10,130 nucleotides of DNA. Origin: an uncultured Woeseiaceae bacterium. Its GTDB lineage: Bacteria; Pseudomonadota; Gammaproteobacteria; Woeseiales; Woeseiaceae. The stretch is from positions 1-10,130 of the forward strand of contig CAMYMP010000725.1 of the NCBI GenBank assembly GCA_947259435.1, in the 5' to 3' direction. Below are positions 1 through 10,105 of the stretch, in pieces (within the stretch, counting starts at the first letter, position 1; the number at the start of each line of letters is the position of its first letter). A model generated the notes under the pieces. It did not search any database, was not told the DNA's origin, and was given only the letters and a program-made list of their open reading frames with translations. Made by a program: the position numbers and the translations under genes.

Positions 1-331
1 GGCGCTGTGCTTTGGCCAGGCAGGCGACCGGCCCGACGATCTGATTCGCGAACTCGCGCGCAGCGCCTGGGAATCGGGCCTCGATCGCGTATTCGTTTCC
101 GAACTCGCGAAATATCATCGCGGCCGGGAAGAAGGCGCAGTGTTTGGCGTGATACGCAACGAACTCATCAAGCGCGGCGCCAGAGAAGATCAGATCGAAC
201 ATCACATGCAGGAGATCGAGTCGCTCGACTCGGCATTGGAATGGGCCGAGCCGGGCGATCTCATCGTAATGCTAGCCCTCGAACGTTCTCCGGACCTCTA
301 CGAAAAGTTACACACCTTGTCGAACACCTAG
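1..331 (+). CDS. Mur ligase / cyanophycin synthetase-like protein, C-terminal fragment (5' end outside window)
   Basis: Only the last 109 codons are present; reading begins at base 2 and ends with TAG at 329-331. The visible protein starts ALCFGQAGDRPDDLIREL and contains a segment AKYHRGREEGAVFGVIRNEL, then an acidic stretch and ALEWAEPGDLIVML. This order (a GDR turn, an RGR-x-EG-x-V segment, then A-x-PGDL-hydrophobic) is what I know from the C-terminal domain of ATP-dependent Mur ligases, especially the Mur-like half of cyanophycin synthetases. Those enzymes join amino acids to a peptide or polymer carboxylate in the cytoplasm. The ATP-binding P-loop and central domain would lie upstream, so the substrate cannot be judged. 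It could equally be a stand-alone Mur-ligase-domain protein. The gene converges on the M3 peptidase gene. Confidence 0.6.
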   Translation, partial: ALCFGQAGDRPDDLIRELARSAWESGLDRVFVSELAKYHRGREEGAVFGVIRNELIKRGAREDQIEHHMQEIESLDSALEWAEPGDLIVMLALERSPDLYEKLHTLSNT

Positions 332-423: not shown

Positions 424-2565
424 CTAGTTCAGTCCGCGCTTTTCGAGTAGCGGTCCGATTTCCGGTTCGCGGCCGCGGAAGTTCTGATACAGCTCCATGC
501 CAGGTCGTGTTCCGCCTTTGCTCAGAATTTCCTTGCGGTAACGGGCCGCCGTGTCCTGATCGAACAGGCTCGTTTCCCGGAATGCCATGAAAGTGTCGGC
601 GTCGAGAATCTCCGACCAGATGTAGCTGTAGTAGCCGGCCGAATATCCGCCCGAGAATATATGCTGGAAGTAGCCACTGCGATAGCGCGGGATGATCTCC
701 TCGATCAGGCCGATGTCGGCCATGGCGGCGCTTTCGAATCCCCGCGGCTCGACTGCTTCGGTCGTGTCGAGCACGTGGTAGGCCATATCGAGGTAGGCGG
801 CCGCCAGGTATTCAACGGTGACAAAGCCCTGATTGAACGTAGCTGACGCAGTGATCTTGTCGACAGCCTCCTGTGGAATCGGCTCGCCGGTCTGGTAGTG
901 ATTCGCAAACATGCGCAGCACTTCAGGTTCGCGCATCCAGTTCTCCATGACTTGCGACGGATATTCGACAAAGTCTCGCGGCGTGCTCGTTCCCGCAAGA
1001 GATTCGTAAGTCACATTCGACAACATGCCGTGCAGCGCATGGCCAAATTCGTGAAAAAATGTTTCGGCTTCCGTCAGGCTCAAGAGCGACGGCGAGTCGT
1101 CGGTCGGTGCCGGGAAGTTGAAATTGTTCGTCACGACCGGTGTCACGAAACCGTCGATGTTCGACTGCGAGCGCAGGGCGTTCATCCAGGCGCCGCCACG
1201 CTTTGATTCGCGCGCGAAGTAGTCCAAATACAGGATAGCGAGGTGGCTGCCATCGGCCTCCTTGACTTCAAATACCTGTTGCTCCGGATGCCACGTAGGC
1301 AGGTCTTCGCGCTGTTCGAATTGCAGGCCGAACAATTTCGTTGCAAGGGCGAAAACGCCATCGCGAACCGCGTTGACCTCGAAGAAGGGACGCAGTGCGT
1401 CCGCGTCAAGATCGAACTTGGCCTTGCGAACTTTTTCGGTGTAGTAACGCCAATCCCAGGCACGCAGGCGATCGTCGATACCGTCGGCTTTCATCAGCGC
1501 CTGCATATCGGCTCGCTCGGCGATCGCAACTGCAAGCGCGGGTCTCCATATCTGGTCGAGCAGGTTGTAAACGTTATCCGGGGTCTCGGCCATGTTGTCG
1601 GACAGCACATAATTCGCGTGGCTTTCATAGCCCATCAGCGCGGAGCGCTCAGCCCGAAGCTGCACCATGCGCGAGATAATCGCCTTATTGTCCACTTCGT
1701 TGTCGTTGTCGCCGCGCATGGCATAGCCATCGAATATCTTTTTGCGCATTTCGCGATTCGGCGAGTACTCCAGGAACGGATTGATGCTCGGGCGCTGCAG
1801 CGTGAATACCCAGCATTCACAATCGTGGCCGCGTCGCTTCGCTTCTTCGGCGGCCAGAGAGACAAGGCTAGCAGGCAGGTCACCAAGGTCCGCCCTGTCG
1901 GTGACGAGCAACTCGAAATTATTTGTGTCTTCCAAAACGTTGTCCCCGAACTGCTGCGACAGCTCGGCGAGTTCCGCGTTGATCTCACGCAGCCGATCCT
2001 GCGCCTCGTCCTCAAGATTGGCGCCGGAGCGTACGAATTCCTTGTGCGTTTCTTCGAGTAGGCGCTGTTGTTCGCCATCGAGTTCGAGATCGTCGCGCTG
2101 TTCGTACACGGTGAGTACGCGGTCGAACAGATCCTTGTTGAGGCGGATGTTATCCCGATGTGCCGCGAGTTCCGGAGCGATGGTTTTGGCAGTCTCCTTT
2201 GTCACGTCGTCTGAATTTGCCGAGTCGATCGCGAAGAAGATTCGACTAACTCTGCTCAGCGAGCCACCGCTGCGCTCGAGCGCTTCGATCGTATTGTCGA
2301 AACTCGGGGCTTCTGTCCGGGCGACGATAGCGTCGATCTCGGCATTGTGCTCGTCCATGCTGGCGCGAAAGGCCGGCAGGTAGTGTTCCGATTCGATCTG
2401 ATCGAATGGCGGGACGCCAAACTGTGTGTCCCATCCGTTGAGCAGCGGATTCGTAGCGATCACAGCATTAGCCGTGGCGTCCTCGAGCTCAGTTCCTGGC
2501 TCGTCACTGCACGACGAGACGGCCAGGCTAAATGCGATAGCCGTTAGTAGCAAATTCGACTTCAT
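424..2565 (-). CDS. M3 family metallopeptidase, Dcp-like peptidyl-dipeptidase, predicted lipoprotein
   Basis: A zinc peptidase of 713 residues, the usual length for the oligopeptidase A / peptidyl-dipeptidase Dcp family, which trims short peptides. The zinc site is intact: HEFGH at residues 505-509 inside ETFFHEFGHALHGML, with the third ligand Glu534 in DFVEYPSQVMENW. The substrate-binding HIFSGGYSAGYYSYIWSEIL segment is at about 635-654. The N terminus has two charged or polar residues, a hydrophobic stretch and a lipobox-like V-S-S-C ending at Cys19. Ser follows Cys19, which favours an outer-membrane-anchored, periplasm-facing lipoprotein. The ATG start is supported by GAGGA six bases upstream. 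A C-x-C pair at 249-251 is unusual. It lies downstream of the hydrolase remnant and EVE gene, with a 71-bp AT-rich gap that could hold its own promoter. Family assignment is firm; Dcp versus OpdA specificity is inferred. Confidence 0.93.
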   Translation of the reverse strand: MKSNLLLTAIAFSLAVSSCSDEPGTELEDATANAVIATNPLLNGWDTQFGVPPFDQIESEHYLPAFRASMDEHNAEIDAIVARTEAPSFDNTIEALERSGGSLSRVSRIFFAIDSANSDDVTKETAKTIAPELAAHRDNIRLNKDLFDRVLTVYEQRDDLELDGEQQRLLEETHKEFVRSGANLEDEAQDRLREINAELAELSQQFGDNVLEDTNNFELLVTDRADLGDLPASLVSLAAEEAKRRGHDCECWVFTLQRPSINPFLEYSPNREMRKKIFDGYAMRGDNDNEVDNKAIISRMVQLRAERSALMGYESHANYVLSDNMAETPDNVYNLLDQIWRPALAVAIAERADMQALMKADGIDDRLRAWDWRYYTEKVRKAKFDLDADALRPFFEVNAVRDGVFALATKLFGLQFEQREDLPTWHPEQQVFEVKEADGSHLAILYLDYFARESKRGGAWMNALRSQSNIDGFVTPVVTNNFNFPAPTDDSPSLLSLTEAETFFHEFGHALHGMLSNVTYESLAGTSTPRDFVEYPSQVMENWMREPEVLRMFANHYQTGEPIPQEAVDKITASATFNQGFVTVEYLAAAYLDMAYHVLDTTEAVEPRGFESAAMADIGLIEEIIPRYRSGYFQHIFSGGYSAGYYSYIWSEILDADTFMAFRETSLFDQDTAARYRKEILSKGGTRPGMELYQNFRGREPEIGPLLEKRGLN

Positions 2566-2636: not shown

Positions 2637-2905
2637 TCATTCTGCGATCGGCAAGCCGCGCATGAAGTCTAGCGTCTGTTCCAGCATCTCGTCGGTGTTG
2701 TCAGGTGACAGGATGTTACCGGCCAAAACGTGTTTACTCGGGTCGCCGACGTCGTCGAACTCAATGAGGCGCTTGCGCGGCGCATCGACCAGCCGCAGGG
2801 CAGCGCCGGCACTGCCACTTCATTGATCAGGGCCGGAGGCGTGGCGATGAATCCCGCAACAGCGAGCAGAATGACGACCAGTACAGCAAGGAGTGACCTG
2901 GGCAA
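2637..2905 (-). pseudogene. Remnant of an exported alpha/beta hydrolase gene (large internal deletion plus frameshift)
   Basis: The first ~36 codons, from a TTG at 2905 six bases after the EVE stop, give a typical signal peptide or membrane anchor (LLAVLVVILLAVAGFIATPP). That frame then becomes meaningless (RRASASLSSTTSATR...). In a shifted frame the DNA down to TGA at 2637-2639 reads LRLVDAPRKRLIEFDD, then KHVLAGNILSP and a final helix ending MRGLPIAE. I recognise the KRLIEFDD...HVLAG-x-ILSP pattern as the C terminus around the catalytic His of alpha/beta hydrolases that start with such an anchor. The nucleophile elbow (G-x-S-x-G) and everything between are missing, and a TGA at about 2822 blocks the second frame upstream. 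So this looks like a gene of about 300 codons that lost most of its middle. The exact junction, near 2800-2820, cannot be fixed by eye. Family identity is from memory of pattern, not a search. Confidence 0.6.
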
Positions 2906-2911
2906 GAGGCG

Positions 2912-3364
2912 CTACTCCAGGGTCAGGATCAGATCCCAATGTTCGTCGCTGACGGGCATTATCGATAGCCGGTTGCCCCGTCGCGTCAGGATCATGTCGT
3001 CGAGCCCCGGATGAGCTTTTATTTCCGCAAGCGTGATGGGCTTTCTGAGTTTGCGCACGAACTCGACGTCGACGAGCACCCAGCGCGGATCGTCCTCGCT
3101 GCTTTTCGGGTCGAAGTACTTCGAGTCCGTGTCAAATTGGGTCGGGTCCGGATAGGGTTCGCTCGCGACCCTCGCAATGCCGGATATGCCGGGTTCTTTG
3201 CAGCTCGAGTGATAGAAAAAGATCTCGTCGTCAATGCGCATTTCGTCCCGCATCATGTTGCGGGCCTGATAATTGCGAACACTGTCCCACATCTCGCGAC
3301 CGTCCCGCTCGAGATCGTCGATGCTGTAAACGTCGGGTTCTGATTTCATCAGCCAGTAGGCCAC
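2912..3364 (-). CDS. EVE domain-containing protein (COG2947 type)
   Basis: A protein of 150 residues made of a single EVE domain (PUA-like fold), the normal size for the bacterial family. Diagnostic segments are AYWLMKSEPD (2-11), WDSVRNYQARNMMRDEM (26-42), DEIFFYHSSC, then GISGIARV and RRGNRLSIMPVS near the C terminus. EVE domains are thought to bind modified bases in nucleic acids through an aromatic pocket; the role of this stand-alone cytoplasmic version is not established. The start is GTG at 3364: an in-frame TAG lies 13 codons upstream and no other start codon intervenes, while the first ATG (codon 6) would cut into the conserved AYWLMKSEP. An AGGTGG lies only three bases before the GTG, which is close for a ribosome binding site. 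The gene is divergent from the DUF47 gene and sits 6 bp upstream of the hydrolase remnant, so the two were probably co-transcribed. Confidence 0.92.
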   Translation of the reverse strand: MAYWLMKSEPDVYSIDDLERDGREMWDSVRNYQARNMMRDEMRIDDEIFFYHSSCKEPGISGIARVASEPYPDPTQFDTDSKYFDPKSSEDDPRWVLVDVEFVRKLRKPITLAEIKAHPGLDDMILTRRGNRLSIMPVSDEHWDLILTLE

Positions 3365-3435
3365 GTTCCACCTGTTGTCTGTCTTCTCGTCGGGCTGCGG
3401 AGTCTAACACGACGGGTCCGTTTCGAAAGGCGCTA

Positions 3436-3444
3436 TGGTACGAT
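3436..3444 (+). promoter_or_regulatory. Candidate extended -10 promoter for the DUF47-pit-ggt-MFS run
   Basis: The 116-bp gap between the divergent EVE and DUF47 genes contains TGGTACGAT, which fits an extended -10 element (TG-n-TACGAT, 4 of 6 to TATAAT). It sits about 37 bases before the DUF47 start codon. No good -35 hexamer is found 16-18 bp upstream, which is tolerated for extended -10 promoters. It is flanked by GGCGC (3429-3433) and GCGCC (3446-3450), which can pair. I see no Pho box. This is a weak call. Confidence 0.25.
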
Positions 3445-3480
3445 GGCGCCACGATTCAGGAGAGGACCGGACCGACTGAA

Positions 3481-4155
3481 ATGACAAACGTACTTGCGAA
3501 TATTTTTGGCTCATCACCGGTCCAGCCGCTCGAAAAACACGTCGACATTGCGTATCGCTGTGCGAAACAGTTGCTGGGTTTTTTTGCAGCAGCAGTAGCT
3601 GGCGAATGGGACAAAGCCGCAAGCTTCCGCGACGAAATCGAGAAGCTTGAGCACGCGGCGGACGATCTGAAAAAAGAAATCCGGCTGCATCTTCCGAAGA
3701 GTCTGTTTATGCCGGTACCGCGCGAGGATCTGCTGGAGCTCCTGCTCGTGCAGGACAAGATCGCGAATCGCACAAAAGACGTTTCGGGCATAGTGCTGGG
3801 TCGCAAGATGCAGATTCCACCGGCGATTGCCGAACAGTTCCTTGAGTTTGTCGACCGCAATGTGGATGCGGCGAAGCAGGCACGCAAAAGTGTGCGCGAG
3901 CTGGACGAATTATTCACCGCTGGCTTTCGCGGCGCAGAAGTGGATCTGGTCGCCGGCATGATCGAAGAACTCGACCGTATCGAGACCGATACCGACGACA
4001 AACAAGCGGCGTTGCGCGCGGCGCTGTTTGCGATCGAAGACTCGCTGAATCCGGTCGACGCCGTATTCATGTATCAGGTCATCGAACTAACGGGCGAGAT
4101 TGCGGACATGGCCGAACGTGTCGGCCGCCGGCTTGAGCTGTTGCTCTCTCACTAA
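3481..4155 (+). CDS. DUF47 / PhoU-like Pit accessory protein (TIGR00153 family)
   Basis: A helical cytoplasmic protein of 224 residues, matching the usual length of the DUF47 (UPF0111) family. Recognisable segments are EIEKLEHAADDLKKEIRLHL (52-71), LPKSLFMPVPREDLLELLLVQDKI (71-94, with the typical F-x-P-V-x-R-E-D-L), NRTKDVSGIVLGRKMQIP (96-113), and a final helix DAVFMYQVIELTGEIADMAERV (193-214). These acidic helices resemble PhoU, and in many bacteria the gene directly precedes pit, as here. Known work on such pairs supports a role in regulating or assisting phosphate uptake by Pit. The ATG at 3481 has its best purine-rich sequence, AGGAGAGGA, 14 bases upstream, which is unusually far. There is no alternative in-frame ATG, GTG or TTG nearby upstream. 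It is probably the first gene of the run to 8517. Confidence 0.93.
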   Translation: MTNVLANIFGSSPVQPLEKHVDIAYRCAKQLLGFFAAAVAGEWDKAASFRDEIEKLEHAADDLKKEIRLHLPKSLFMPVPREDLLELLLVQDKIANRTKDVSGIVLGRKMQIPPAIAEQFLEFVDRNVDAAKQARKSVRELDELFTAGFRGAEVDLVAGMIEELDRIETDTDDKQAALRAALFAIEDSLNPVDAVFMYQVIELTGEIADMAERVGRRLELLLSH

Positions 4156-4171
4156 TAATTATTCAAAAAGT

Positions 4172-4189
4172 CGGGCGCTTTGGCGTCCG
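4172..4189. other. Intercistronic hairpin between DUF47 gene and pit
   Basis: CGGGCGC (4172-4178) pairs with GCGTCCG (4183-4189) through seven pairs including one G-U, around a TTTG loop. The hairpin occupies the centre of the 47-bp gap and lies just before the pit ribosome binding site. On the + strand no T-run follows, so it is unlikely to stop pit transcription. On the minus strand it is followed by a run of five T, the form of an intrinsic terminator against antisense transcription. It could also affect RNA processing or pit translation. Confidence 0.35.
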
Positions 4190-4202
4190 TGAGGGCAGTT
4201 TC

Positions 4203-5453
4203 ATGGAAGCACAGCTCGTTTATATAGGCCTGGCCGCCGTGTTCGGCATCTTCATGGCATGGGGTATCGGCGCGAACGATGTCGCCAATGCAATGGCGAC
4301 GTCGGTCGGCTCCAAAGCACTGACCATCAAACAGGCAATTCTCGTTGCCGCCGTGTTCGAGTTCATGGGTGCGGTGCTTGCCGGCGGCGAAGTCACGTCC
4401 ACGATCAGAAAAGGCATTGTCGATGCGGACCTGCTAGAAGGCAGCCCTGAGTTGCTGATTTACGGCATGCTCGCGGCTCTGCTCGCCGCGGGCACCTGGC
4501 TACTGATTGCATCGCGCAACGGCTGGCCTGTTTCGACAACGCATTCGATCGTTGGCGCAATTGTCGGGTTCGCCGCTGTCGGCATAGGCGTCGATGCCGT
4601 GCAGTGGGGCAAGGTCGGCACGATCGTCATGAGCTGGGTGGTGTCACCGCTGACCGCCGGGTTCATCGCTTACCTCATTTACCGCAGTGTGCAGCGCCTG
4701 ATTCTGCGCCAGGAAGATCCGCTGGCCAAAGCCAAGCGTTATGTGCCCGTCTACATTTTTCTCGCCGCGTTTACGATCACGCTCGTAACGATACTGAAGG
4801 GACTCAAACACGTCGGGCTGAATCTCGATTTGCGCGAAGCATACGCACTCGCGATTGCGATTGCGGTCGGCATCGCAATCGTTGGTGCGTTGGCCATTCG
4901 GCGCATCCAGCCCGACAAGAAAGCCGAAAAGCACCAGCACTTCCATACGGTCGAGCGCGTCTTCGGCGTACTGATGATCGTAACCGCCTGCGGCATGGCG
5001 TTCGCGCACGGCTCGAACGATGTCGCCAACGCGATTGGTCCCCTTGCAGCAGTAATCAGCGTCGCACAGACTGGCTCGATCGCGGCCAAGTCCGCGTTGC
5101 CGGTGTGGGTACTGATGCTCGGCGGTGGCGGAATCGTGATCGGTCTCGCAACGTTTGGCCGTCATGTCATTGCGACAGTCGGCAAGAAGATCACGCAGTT
5201 GACGCCCAGCCGCGGATTTGCGGCCGAACTTGCGGCGGCAACGACGATCGTCATTGCGTCAGGTACCGGCATACCGATATCGACGACGCACACGCTGGTT
5301 GGCGCGGTGCTCGGCGTCGGCATGGCGCGTGGCATCGAGGCGATCGATCTTCGCGTCGTCGCGCGCATACTCGTGTCATGGGTCGTAACCATTCCGGCCG
5401 GCGCATTTCTCGCGATCGTGTTTTTCTTTATATTCAAGATGGTCTTGCCGTAA
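4203..5453 (+). CDS. pit: Inorganic phosphate transporter, PiT family
   Basis: An inner-membrane protein of 416 residues in the PiT family, which takes up phosphate (often as a metal-phosphate complex) driven by protons or sodium. Both family repeats are visible: the N-terminal GIGANDVANAMATSVGSKAL (21-40) and the C-terminal HGSNDVANAIGPLAAV (269-284), each later followed by an STTH motif (111-114 and 360-363, the second in ISTTHTLVGAVLGVG). About ten hydrophobic segments can be counted, with a hydrophilic central loop around 235-250 that is rich in Lys and His. The ATG at 4203 is preceded by GAGGG with good spacing. Pairing with the DUF47 gene 47 bp upstream is a classic arrangement. The ggt start follows only 16 bp after the pit stop, so read-through transcription into ggt and the MFS gene is likely. 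Family assignment is firm; the co-transported ion cannot be told. Confidence 0.95.
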   Translation: MEAQLVYIGLAAVFGIFMAWGIGANDVANAMATSVGSKALTIKQAILVAAVFEFMGAVLAGGEVTSTIRKGIVDADLLEGSPELLIYGMLAALLAAGTWLLIASRNGWPVSTTHSIVGAIVGFAAVGIGVDAVQWGKVGTIVMSWVVSPLTAGFIAYLIYRSVQRLILRQEDPLAKAKRYVPVYIFLAAFTITLVTILKGLKHVGLNLDLREAYALAIAIAVGIAIVGALAIRRIQPDKKAEKHQHFHTVERVFGVLMIVTACGMAFAHGSNDVANAIGPLAAVISVAQTGSIAAKSALPVWVLMLGGGGIVIGLATFGRHVIATVGKKITQLTPSRGFAAELAAATTIVIASGTGIPISTTHTLVGAVLGVGMARGIEAIDLRVVARILVSWVVTIPAGAFLAIVFFFIFKMVLP

Positions 5454-5469
5454 CGGGAGTGAGCTGCCG

Positions 5470-7235
5470 ATGCGCCGCCTATTCATAGCTGTTGTCGCGC
5501 TGCAGATGTCCTGCGCCATGGCCCAGGTCGTCGAGCCGTCGGTTATTCGTTACACCGACTTGCGGCACCCGGTCTACAGTTCGACCGGGATGATCGCGGC
5601 GCAAAGCAATACCGCGGCCGTAGTCGGTGCAGAGGTGCTTGCAGATGGCGGCAATGCGGTTGATGCTGCGGTTGCGGTCGGCTTCTCGCTCGCGGTCACG
5701 CTACCGCGGGCCGGCAATATCGGCGGTGGTGGGTTCATGCTCGTGTACGACGCCGAATCCGATTCAGCCACGGCGATCGATTATCGAGAAATGGCGCCGC
5801 CGGCCGCGCACCGTGACATGTTCCTCGATGAGAATGGCAACGCTGATCCGGAACTATCGCGCTTCAGCCACAAAGCCTCGGGCGTCCCGGGCACGGTGGC
5901 CGGGTTGTACCTTGCACACAAAAAGTTTGGCCGTATGTCGTGGAAGCGCGTCGTTCAGCCCGCGGCCGATCTCGCTCGTGAAGGCATTGTCGTAACGCGT
6001 GACCTCGCGAACCTGCTTGCATCCCGCAAGGAGAGGATGTGTCGTGACGCGTCAACCTGCGAATATTTCTATAAACCTGGTGGTGTTCCGTACCGAATGG
6101 GCGAGACCCTTGTGCAATCGGATCTCGCCGAATCGCTGCAATTGATTGCGGACGAGGGGCCTGACGCGTTTTATCGCGGCGCGATTGCCGAGAAGATAGC
6201 GGCCGAGATGAAACGGGGCGGGGGTCTGATTGACATGGAGGCACTTGCGGCCTACAAGCCCGTGATCCGCGAGCCGCTCCGCGGCAGCTACCGCGGCTAC
6301 GAGATCGTCACGATGCCACCGCCGAGCTCGGGAGGTGCCCACATCCTGCAAATGCTGAACGTGCTGTCGCATTTTCCCGTGACGGCGATGGGCGCTGGCA
6401 GCGCCGACGCGACGCATCTGCTGGCCGAAGTCATGCGGCTTGCCTATGCCGATCGCAGCAAACACCTTGGCGATCCCGACTTCTATGACGTCCCCGTCGA
6501 CTGGCTCACGAGCGCGGACTATGCCGCTGAGCTCGCAGACTCGATCGATATGAAATGGGCGCGCCCGTCGACTGACGTAGCCCCCGGTGTCGCGCCGTTG
6601 CATGAAAGCGAAGACACAACTCACTTTTCGGTCATCGATACGGACGGCAATATCGTGTCGAATACCTACACGCTGAATTTCTCTTACGGCTCGGCCATAT
6701 CCGTTGCCGGCGCCGGATTCCTGCTCAACAATGAAATGGACGACTTCGTCTCCAAACCGGGCGTGCCCAACGCGTTCGGTTTGCTGGGCGGCAAGGCGAA
6801 TTCGGTCGAGGCCGGCAAGCGGCCATTGAGTTCGATGACGCCGGCCATCGTATTTGCTGACGGTGAGCCGTGGTTTGCGACGGGCAGCCCGGGCGGTAGC
6901 CGTATCATTACAACGGTGCTGCAGGTATCATTACAACGGTGCTGCAGATGCTCGTCAACGTCATCGACCATGGCATGAACCTTGCGGACGCATCGAATCA
7001 ACCGCGCGTGCACCATCAGTGGTTTCCTGACGAGCTGCAGCTCGAATCCGGATTCAGTCCCGATACGATTCGGCTTCTCGAGGCCCGAGGACATGTAGTG
7101 CGACCCTCAACACGATCGATGGGCAGCCTGCAGTCCGTCGCGATTCGCGACGGCTTGTACCGCGGCGCGTCGGATCCGCGCCGACCGAATGCTGGCGCCG
7201 CTGCGCCCGCCGCCATAGATGCCACTGTCCACTAA
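5470..7235 (+). pseudogene. ggt: Gamma-glutamyltransferase, frameshifted by a 23-bp tandem duplication
   Basis: GGT is a self-cleaving periplasmic enzyme that transfers or hydrolyses gamma-glutamyl groups, for example from glutathione. The first frame (5470-6978) has a Sec signal peptide ending A-M-A at 16-18, DYREMAP with the substrate-binding Arg106, the processing site DTTHFS with the likely nucleophile Thr383, TYTLN with Thr401, PLSSM (452-456) and GSPGGSRIITTVLQ (472-485). Reading then runs into 17 unrelated residues and TGA at 6976-6978. The true C terminus continues in another frame from 6948 to TAA at 7235: LVNVIDHGMNLADA, PRVHHQWFPDELQLE and YRGASDPRRP are all typical GGT. Removing one 23-base repeat joins both into 580 codons, the size of E. 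coli GGT. As written, the product loses half of the small subunit and should be inactive. A GGAGTG ribosome binding site precedes the ATG. A Cys191/Cys197 pair could form a disulfide. All known catalytic residues up to the break are intact, so inactivation is recent or an artefact. Confidence 0.9.
6902..6947 (+). repeat. Perfect 23-bp tandem direct duplication inside ggt
   Basis: Two identical adjacent copies, 6902-6924 and 6925-6947, each starting GTATCATTACAAC and ending GGTGCTGCAG. The bases on either side do not extend the match, so there are exactly two copies. The first copy encodes the conserved I-T-T-V-L-Q segment; the second repeats the same bases shifted by 23, which is not a multiple of three, and so breaks the frame. 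Confidence 0.98.
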
Positions 7236-8517
7236 CCAGGCAAAATCCGGCATCAGTTTTGCCGCGCGGCGCTACGCGATGGTCGTACTGGCCATCGTCT
7301 ATATGTTCAACTTCGTTGACCGGCAAATCCTGTCAATCCTGCTGCCGGCGATTCGCGACGAGTTTCAGGTCGGGGATACGGTACTTGGCCTGCTCGCCGG
7401 AACGGCATTCGCGTTGTTCTACGTCATTCTCGGCGTGCCGATCGCGCAGCTGGCCGACAGGGTCAATCGGCGCAATCTCATCGCGGCCGCGGTCGCCGTC
7501 TGGAGCGGCATGACCGCGCTGTCGGGACTGGCGGCCAATATCTGGCATCTGGTGCTGGCGCGCGTCGGCGTCGGCATCGGCGAAGCCGGGTGCAGCCCGC
7601 CCGCGCACTCGATGATTGCAGACCTGTATCCGCCCGAGCGGCGCTCGTCGGCCATGGGCTTCTACACGCTCGGAATTTCGGCGGGCGTCATGCTCGCCTA
7701 TCTCGCCGGCGGCTGGGTTGCGCAGAACATAGGCTGGCGCGAAGCGTTCTTTATTGTCGGCATCCCCGGCCTGCTGCTGGCGCTGGTAGTCCGGTTCACA
7801 TTGACCGAACCGCAACGCGGCGCGTCCGAGCAGCGGACGGACAGCGGCAAGCCGCCGACCCTGTTGCTTGTGGCCACGTTTCTTCTGGCGCGGCGCTCGT
7901 TCCTGTACATGGCGATAGCCGCAGGTCTGAGCGCGTTCGTCGGCTATGCGGTCATCAACTTCATGCCGAGCTTCATCGTGCGCAGCTTCGGCATGGACGT
8001 CGCCGTGCTCGGCTTCTGGCTTGGTCTGATCTATGGCATAGCTGGCGGCTTCGGTTTTTTCATGGGCGGCTATTTCGCCGATCACTTCGGTCGCGAGAAT
8101 CACCGCAGCGCATTGGCGTTTATCGGTTTGGCGCAGGCCGTGTCGGCGATACTATTCGCCGCGGTATTCCTGGCATCGAGCGTAACCTGGTGCCTGATTC
8201 TGCTCGTCGTACCGGCAGTAACATCGAATTTCTATCTGGCCCCGGTACTGAGCCAGACACAGAGCCTCGTGTCCTTGCGCATGCGGGCCGTTGCCTCGTC
8301 GCTCGTATTGTTGATCATTAACGTGATTGGACTCGCTATGGGTCCTCCCGTTACGGGCCTGATCAGTGACGTCCTGGAGCCCGGCTTTGGCGACGAATCC
8401 ATGCGCTACAGCCTGCTGATCGTAAGCGCATTCTTGCTGCCTGCGGCGGCGTGGTGCTACTACCAGGCCGGCAAGTCGATTGACGGTGACCTGCAGCGCG
8501 CGGACGAACACGACTGA
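7219..8517 (+). CDS. Spinster-type MFS transporter
   Basis: A 432-residue inner-membrane protein with twelve predicted helices, the standard size for the major facilitator superfamily. Helix 1 carries NFVDRQILSILLPAI (31-45), the V/I-DRQ signature of spinster-like transporters. Motif A is present as GVPIAQLADRVNRRNL (72-87), followed by ARVGVGIGEAGCSPPAHSMI (114-133). A degenerate motif A, GGYFADHFGREN (283-294), marks the second half, and a short polar loop (195-213) separates the halves. The substrate cannot be told from sequence; relatives move lipids, organic acids and other metabolites. The ATG at 7219 overlaps the repaired ggt end by 17 bases and has no clear ribosome binding site, so translation is probably coupled to ggt. 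The next ATG (codon 21, 7279) has none either and lies at the start of helix 1. In the frameshifted form of ggt, ribosomes stop about 240 bases before this start. Confidence 0.92.
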   Translation: MPLSTNQAKSGISFAARRYAMVVLAIVYMFNFVDRQILSILLPAIRDEFQVGDTVLGLLAGTAFALFYVILGVPIAQLADRVNRRNLIAAAVAVWSGMTALSGLAANIWHLVLARVGVGIGEAGCSPPAHSMIADLYPPERRSSAMGFYTLGISAGVMLAYLAGGWVAQNIGWREAFFIVGIPGLLLALVVRFTLTEPQRGASEQRTDSGKPPTLLLVATFLLARRSFLYMAIAAGLSAFVGYAVINFMPSFIVRSFGMDVAVLGFWLGLIYGIAGGFGFFMGGYFADHFGRENHRSALAFIGLAQAVSAILFAAVFLASSVTWCLILLVVPAVTSNFYLAPVLSQTQSLVSLRMRAVASSLVLLIINVIGLAMGPPVTGLISDVLEPGFGDESMRYSLLIVSAFLLPAAAWCYYQAGKSIDGDLQRADEHD

Positions 8518-8521
8518 GCGA

Positions 8522-9910
8522 TCATACGGCGCGCAGGTACCAGTCGAAGTCGATTGGGCTGACGACGTTGTGGAACTGCCGAGACTCCTCGCGACGATTG
8601 CGCGCGTAATACCGGCAATAATCTTCACCGAGGTAGGTGGGCAGGATTTTGCTTTTCGAGAAACTGTCGATCGCACGCTCCCAGCGGTCGGGGATTCGCG
8701 TTTTGATTCTTACACGTTCGCCTTCCTCGATCATCCGCCCGGGGGCGATCTTGTGCTTCAGCCCGTGGTGCACACCGGCCGCAATAGCGGCGGTTACCAG
8801 GTAGGGATTGGCATCCGCGCCTGCAACACGATGTTCGAAGCGCAGATTGCTTTCGTCAGCCTGCGGAATGCGAACCGCCACAACGCGGTGATTGACACCC
8901 CAGTTCGTATCAACCGGCGCAAAGTTTTCAGGCAAAAGCCTGCGGTATGAGTTGGCATTCGGCGCGAATATCGCGGTCGACTCCGCCATCGTCTGCAGCA
9001 GGCCGCCGACCGCGTGACGCAGTCGCGCCGAGAACGGCGGCGATGCGAGCTTGTCGCGCCCATAAGAGAAGTAATTGTCGCCGTTGCGATCGACAAGGCT
9101 CATGTGAATATGCAGGCCACTGCCCGAATCTTCGGCGAATGGTTTGGCCATGAAACAGGCGACGAAGCCGTGCTTCAGGGCCGTTGCTTTCACGGCTCTT
9201 TTGAGAAGAAGTGCGTGATCGCACGCCAGTGCGGGATCGTCTACGTGCGTAAGATTGATCTCGAATTGTCCCGGTGCGAATTCTGAGGTTGCGGTGTCGG
9301 CCGGTATGCCCTGCGCGTCGCAATAATCGTATAGCTCGTCGAGGAATTGTTCGATCTCCGCAAGGTCACCAGGGTGATAGACCTGCGGCCCGGGCTGCGG
9401 CCGACCGAGTCCAGGCACGCGCGAAGCTCGTGGAGTCGGCTTGTTCGCCTTGGCATCGAGCAGATAAAACTCCAGCTCCGTGGCCATGACGATCTTGAGC
9501 CCCATCTTTGTGAGCGGCGCGATCGATCGTTCCAGCACGGCTCGAGGATCGGCGAAGTACGGCTCGCCGCTTTTCTCGAACATACGGAACAACGCCTGTG
9601 CAGTCGGCCGAGAGGCCCAGGGGACCGTCGCCATGCTGCCGGGCACCAGGCGACACTGGACGTCCGGATCGCCATCCCCGTCGCCAACCATGCCCGGAAG
9701 TACCGCGCCGAGCGTGCTCATCAGGAGCGCGCCGCCACAAAACCAGAACTCTTCGTCACAGGTCTTTTCGAAGCTGGATCGGCGGATGCGCTTGCCACGC
9801 AATATCCCACAGATATCGGGCACGAGCAGTTCCATGGTGGCTGTGTCCGGGTGGTGATTCAGCAAGCGGCGCAATTCATTGCGTAGCGGATTGTCCTGCT
9901 TTTTCGCCAT
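8522..9910 (-). CDS. Glutamine synthetase family protein, PuuA-like gamma-glutamyl-amine ligase
   Basis: 462 residues, close to E. coli PuuA (gamma-glutamylputrescine synthetase, about 472). The enzyme family uses ATP to join the gamma-carboxyl of glutamate to an amine in the cytoplasm. The N-terminal beta-grasp part contains ICGILRGKRI (33-42). The catalytic domain shows metal ligands in ELEFYLLD (145-152) and APGQFEINL (212-220), the FMAKPFAEDSGSGLHIHMSL block (253-272) with His267 and His269, NSYRRL (320-325), HRVVAVRIP (341-349) and RFEHRVAGADANPYLV (357-372). Several of these blocks match PuuA almost word for word, more closely than ammonia-using GlnA. The C terminus ends FDWYLRAV as in this subfamily. 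The ATG at 9910 has AGGGA about eight bases upstream. The gene converges on the MFS gene with four bases between stops. Substrate (putrescine, another polyamine or another amine) is unknown; no other puu pathway gene is visible. Confidence 0.92.
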   Translation of the reverse strand: MAKKQDNPLRNELRRLLNHHPDTATMELLVPDICGILRGKRIRRSSFEKTCDEEFWFCGGALLMSTLGAVLPGMVGDGDGDPDVQCRLVPGSMATVPWASRPTAQALFRMFEKSGEPYFADPRAVLERSIAPLTKMGLKIVMATELEFYLLDAKANKPTPRASRVPGLGRPQPGPQVYHPGDLAEIEQFLDELYDYCDAQGIPADTATSEFAPGQFEINLTHVDDPALACDHALLLKRAVKATALKHGFVACFMAKPFAEDSGSGLHIHMSLVDRNGDNYFSYGRDKLASPPFSARLRHAVGGLLQTMAESTAIFAPNANSYRRLLPENFAPVDTNWGVNHRVVAVRIPQADESNLRFEHRVAGADANPYLVTAAIAAGVHHGLKHKIAPGRMIEEGERVRIKTRIPDRWERAIDSFSKSKILPTYLGEDYCRYYARNRREESRQFHNVVSPIDFDWYLRAV

Positions 9911-9928
9911 CGTGGATCCCTGGTTGCC

Positions 9929-10105
9929 GTGTTTCCTGCGAGCTTGGATGATCTGCCGCCAGGCCGCAAGAGGACCGGATATCCGCGTGCCTTGCCCGAG
10001 TGGCGGCTGGCCGTGCGGGCAGCTGCAGGCTGCCTGGCGCTGTTGTGTGGCGGCGCCGTGCTAATATTCGGTGACGCCAAGCTGCAGGAAAAAGAAAATC
10101 AATAA
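9929..10105 (+). CDS. Possible small single-pass membrane protein (58 residues, doubtful)
   Basis: An open frame from GTG at 9929 (or TTG at 9944) to TAA at 10103-10105, divergent from the PuuA-like gene. It would encode a hydrophilic, Arg/Pro-rich N-terminal half (LPPGRKRTGYPRALPEW), one hydrophobic helix (AAAGCLALLCGGAVLIFG) and a short charged tail DAKLQEKENQ. The charge layout (positive before, acidic and mixed after the helix) suits a membrane anchor. I do not recognise a family, there is no convincing ribosome binding site, and short open frames arise easily in GC-rich DNA. No other coding frame is convincing in the last 220 bases, so this is the best explanation if the region codes at all. 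The rest of this stretch would be the promoter region of the ligase gene, in which I could not place a clear promoter. Confidence 0.25.
   Translation: MFPASLDDLPPGRKRTGYPRALPEWRLAVRAAAGCLALLCGGAVLIFGDAKLQEKENQ

Follow-up and report, generated by a model that had tools for sequence, protein, structure and literature searches.

A perfect 23-bp tandem duplication shifts the reading frame of an otherwise intact ggt gene in a single contig

Our analysis of a 10,130-base contig (hereafter the window, meaning the whole stretch of DNA that was analysed) suggests that a short stretch was tandemly duplicated very recently, in a genuine event that inactivated a conserved ggt gene, a reading to which we assign a probability of about 0.6. 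It is supported by the exact number of two copies, by the open frame of the gene in all 80 related loci compared, by equal constraint on both of its parts, and by the clean state of the other genes. Against it count the origin of the sequence in a lone contig and the fact that an untrimmed contig join would look identical. If the lesion is real, the window has caught a conserved enzyme gene shortly after it was inactivated, and an overlapping transporter gene may be affected as well. If it is an artefact, it warns that a single join suffices to make an intact gene pass for a pseudogene. General understanding is changed by neither outcome.

The duplication and the two parts of ggt

The two 23-base copies are identical, adjacent and head to tail, as the original prediction had described them, and they amount to exactly 2.0 units (Table 1). 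The chance expectation of such an exact pair is about 1e-10 (arithmetic, 10130 x 4^-23). The repeat is not extended by the bases outside it, which are C versus G on the left and A versus G on the right, and there is therefore no microhomology. Because 23 is not a multiple of three, the second copy shifts the ggt frame, and the ORF ends at the predicted stop after 485 native and 17 foreign residues. The 95 C-terminal residues, whose loss had also been foreseen correctly, lie in another frame that opens at GTG 6939 or at ATG 6948 (95 aa from the latter, which is native Met486). Between them, the two parts cover the PF01019 model (512 positions) end to end, with positions 2-433 matched by the first and 428-511 by the second. 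The truncated ORF alone still belongs to the GGT family by profile, with PF01019 and TIGR00066 scores to be read against cut-offs of 27 and 357.85 bits, and it scores 604.6 bits with the narrower model PRK09615, under the cut-off of 990.

Table 1. Features of the window, with coordinates counted from its first base
Feature	Coordinates	Strand	Remarks
3' end of a gene weakly like cyanophycin synthetase	2-331	+	runs off the window
M3 peptidase	424-2565	-	
EVE-domain protein	2912-3364	-	
DUF47/PhoU-like gene	3481-4155	+	upstream of transporter gene
Pit-type (PHO4) transporter gene	4203-5453	+	directly upstream of ggt
Truncated ggt ORF	5470-6978	+	502 aa; PF01019 524.8 bits, TIGR00066 527.6 bits
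23-bp unit, copy 1	6902-6924	+	native ggt frame still kept
23-bp unit, copy 2	6925-6947	+	identical to copy 1; absent in L001
Severed C-terminal ggt part, native residues 486-580	6948-7235	+	other frame; PF01019 match
MFS transporter gene	7219-8517	+	start overlaps native ggt stop by 17 bp in window and L001
Glutamine-synthetase-like protein	8522-9910	-	

Two of the neighbouring genes resemble known families at a distance. The partial gene at the left edge matches the C-terminal part of cyanophycin synthetase with an E value of 1.2e-11 and 43.6 bits (cut-off 877), and the glutamine-synthetase-like product reaches the cut-off of none of the four NCBIfam models that it matched, gamma-glutamylputrescine synthetase among them.

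The gene in relatives and its constraint

The best genome relatives of the window are metagenome-assembled Gammaproteobacteria, several of them titled Woeseiaceae, and by this kinship the DNA probably comes from an uncultured, Woeseiaceae-like gammaproteobacterium. The nearest, L001 (JAOTUB010000067.1), has the same gene order, with a DNA identity of 86% over window positions 2891-10003 and 80% over 426-2645, and encodes a GGT of 580 aa that is 91% identical and has a single copy of the unit. The nearest other database protein among the matches listed has the same length (580 aa) and identity (91%). Conservation of the order DUF47-Pit transporter-ggt is widespread among the closest relatives (window 4203-8517; loci L001-L029).

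The original prediction had proposed a comparison of ggt among relatives, which we made by tblastn with the GGT of L001. The matches run through residues 476-505 without gap, insertion or stop in all 80 related loci, L001 included; the nearest of these loci is 91% identical in protein, and none is a strain of the same species. The window itself gave the sole gapped match of the 81, with three gap columns across the site, because tblastn extended the downstream frame leftward. We used this count instead of a strict-motif scan, which recovered 76 of 100 loci (58 of the 80 in the main set); loci L081-L100 partly repeat those of the main set (L081 is the L001 locus).

Relative to L001, dN/dS is 0.082 over the 485 codons that precede the duplication and 0.092 over the 95 that follow it, and ranges between 0.057 and 0.116 in the six other window genes. 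None of these six genes has a frame break in this comparison (711 of 713 codons aligned in one, full length in the other five), and the record is thus not prone to indels. Since both parts of ggt are as constrained as the neighbouring genes, the lesion is very recent or not real, and these ratios indicate that ggt is under full constraint still, or was until very recently. The earlier description of the gene as otherwise intact and free of further decay therefore stands, with no second lesion and equally low dN/dS on both sides, and the very recent age proposed for the event gains support from the same ratios and from the uninterrupted frame of the relatives.

A broken ggt might also have been a trend of the family, but this is not borne out by the genes and proteins of relatives that we examined. 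In a survey of 107 genomes, 48 of the top 51 rows among the matches listed have no internal stop and three have one TAG (G048, G084, G088); in G048 (L091) the open frame takes in 477 codons upstream of the start of the SPGG motif and 106 codons downstream of it. Each of the 119 further proteins listed (best 120 of 8000) measures at least 550 aa. The motif pattern is present in 107 of them, all of which continue for at least 95 residues from the motif except P0077 (87). No second record of the same species turned up among the genome relatives and database matches, viral contigs gave no match, and the 764 plasmid records were all under 60% identity.

One relative carries a repeat of another kind: L003 has an in-frame 21-bp tandem array (seven codons; L003:4613-4763) at the 3' end of its ggt. 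From the start of the SPGG motif its frame continues for another 157 codons, versus 99-124 in the other motif-bearing loci of the 80-locus set.

Origin of the duplication

In a sample of 1,210,130 bases (60 stretches of 20 kb from the genomes of five relatives, plus the window; 1,503 N), seven rows had units of 14-100 bp, and the duplication of the window was the only exact one with a unit of at least 18 bp. The 80 loci and the window, which together make 800,624 bases, contain four sites with units of at least 20 bp, the window being one of them. At the other three (L003, L057 and L033) the units measure 21/63, 24 and 21 bp, all multiples of three, and each is present in more than 2.1 copies. 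The rarity of exact duplications of this size in relatives fits a rare mutation, but it also fits an artefact.

Such an artefact would arise if two pieces sharing 23 bases had been joined untrimmed, so that the shared stretch was written twice while the ggt of the organism is intact. We regard this as the main rival reading, possible but less likely than a genuine lesion. It would account for perfect copies without microhomology, for full constraint on both sides, for the confinement of the lesion to a lone contig, and for the lack of another duplication with a unit of at least 18 bp in 1.2 million bases of relatives. Yet the site shows neither an N nor a jump in divergence, no such fault appears in the other genes, and the 46-bp array is short compared with usual read lengths. 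The divergence from L001 is similar on the two sides (dS of 0.53 before and 0.45 after), which rules out a join of distant genomes and remains compatible with two pieces of one population. Our literature search, judged by title and abstract, found nothing on duplications made by untrimmed joins. Among the database proteins, P0121, which is the free 95-aa C-terminal piece of the window, represents a pair of member sequences; the other member may be a further record of the lesion or a fragment from the end of a contig.

A genuine duplication, the reading that we favour, would have arisen in one replication or repair error without microhomology. We rejected two more specific origins. A hairpin-driven duplication is not borne out by the single-stranded fold of 6870-6990, which is no better than that of shuffled sequences (z 0.57; 146 of 200 at least as good). 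Recurrent breakage at the site was considered in a search that used the C-terminal piece as query and gave 74 proteins, 13 of them opening at the equivalent of Met486; others open at MDDF (10), MTP (11) or MHHQW (2), by our own count. These varied openings at internal Met codons reflect start choice in fragments and not repeated lesions. As judged by title and abstract, no literature on a GGT frameshift by tandem duplication was found, the accessible part of PMC12175321 does not name GGT ('glutamyl' is absent from it), and that of PMC13410964 deals with homopolymers.

All readings besides a real allele, an artefact and a switch (discussed below) jointly receive very little of our belief. An extremely improbable one is the scar of a mobile element that inserted with a long target-site duplication and was later excised, leaving both target copies behind. 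A few insertion-sequence families make target duplications of more than 20 bp, and the exactness of the duplication and its lack of microhomology would fit such a scar, but not one base of an element lies between the copies, no transposase is present among the identified genes of the window, and such excision is rare.

Consequences and comparison with known systems

The truncated product retains the nucleophile Thr (residue 383, aligned with position 1 of the E. coli small chain) and the aligned GSPGGSR, which provides the Gly-Gly of the oxyanion hole; the roles of these residues are described in the accessible part of the review PMC8062742. In the alignment, the severed part corresponds to positions 104-182 of the E. 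coli small chain, including R513 and R571 (counted along the alignment), and both arginines are now in another frame, outside a chain that no longer holds a complete small subunit. According to the accessible part of PMC8062742, replacing R513 or R571 blocks self-cleavage of the E. coli enzyme, salt bridges in the C-terminal region matter in H. pylori GGT, and B. licheniformis GGT is impaired in processing and activity by deletions that reach past the ninth residue from the C-terminus. Because the region aligned to R513 and R571, each needed for self-cleavage, is missing, the truncated GGT is probably inactive, and would be unable to cleave itself into two subunits.

The two parts might instead act as a split enzyme, the 95-residue part being made by ribosomes that restart at GTG 6939 or ATG 6948 and the chains then assembling. 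Both starts precede the stop of the truncated ORF, and the second is a native Met codon. Yet no purine-rich ribosome site was seen by eye before either start, and free C-terminal pieces among the database proteins begin at further conserved internal Met codons too, so that starts at internal Met reflect gene calling in fragments. We regard this possibility as close to negligible.

Judged from the conserved gene order and the position of the MFS gene in relatives, the DUF47-Pit-ggt-MFS set is likely an operon, which would link phosphate or sulfate uptake with GGT. In 24 of the 80 loci the C-terminal ggt part and the MFS match are both on the plus strand, and in 21 of these the MFS gene overlaps or abuts ggt, starting within a span from 21 bp upstream to 5 bp downstream of the ggt stop (approximate positions, from tblastn ends). 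In the window, translation of ggt now stops 240 bases short of the MFS start, and this untranslated gap may weaken translation of the overlapping gene unless ribosomes restart at ATG 6948. No promoter-like site was found in 6850-7300, and the single terminator-like match is on the minus strand. The cell may tolerate the loss of this GGT, given that its relatives have one to three additional PF01019 genes (two to four matches per genome in all eight relatives' genomes examined, which are of unstated completeness). A transient null allele, rather than a regulated state, would be the most likely outcome.

A regulated state would imply that the two copies are the off state of a phase switch, the unit being regularly gained and lost by slipped-strand mispairing as a form of bet-hedging. 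We consider this very unlikely. As in phase-variable loci, a frame-shifting tandem repeat (two copies of 23 bp) lies within the gene. Perfect tandem duplications are able to contract, the event could in principle be reversed, and ggt is otherwise intact. Tandem duplications in open frames do switch pneumococcal capsule genes, as the accessible part of PMC4022640 relates. Yet the window has two copies only, no microhomology to make the event recur and no unusual fold, and at residues 476-505 none of the 80 relatives (the nearest at 91% protein identity) has an indel or a repeat, be it kept or varying in copy number. The reversible, phase-switch-like state of the original prediction is thus unsupported beyond the general ability of such duplications to contract. 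Even fainter is the prospect that the lineage uses ggt as a contingency locus, with new duplications turning GGT off and lowering the coupled MFS transporter at the same time, and contraction switching the two back on; if true, this would be a bet-hedged nutrient-salvage operon and not a surface antigen.

Compared with E. coli-type GGT (PF01019, TIGR00066; E. coli 2dbu, 2e0w), the ggt of the window shares the nucleophile Thr and GSPGGSR within native residues 1-485 and also retains the C-terminal part, but in another frame. Its product no longer joins both parts in one chain, and its small subunit breaks off some 103 residues beyond the nucleophile, followed by the 17 foreign residues. The pneumococcal capsule genes (Waite et al. 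2001, 2003, as given in the accessible part of PMC4022640) likewise have a short perfect duplication in an open frame that turns the gene off and may contract. Their switching was observed in culture, and that source puts reversion at about 1e-5 or less for insertions of up to nine bp, whereas the window offers one state of an enzyme gene in one contig. In icaC of Staphylococcus aureus (accessible part of PMC4117637), a change in repeat number likewise shifts the frame and cuts the protein short close to its C-terminal part, but the array there has a 4-nt unit, varies among isolates and reverts, whereas the window has one 23-bp unit written twice and absent in relatives.
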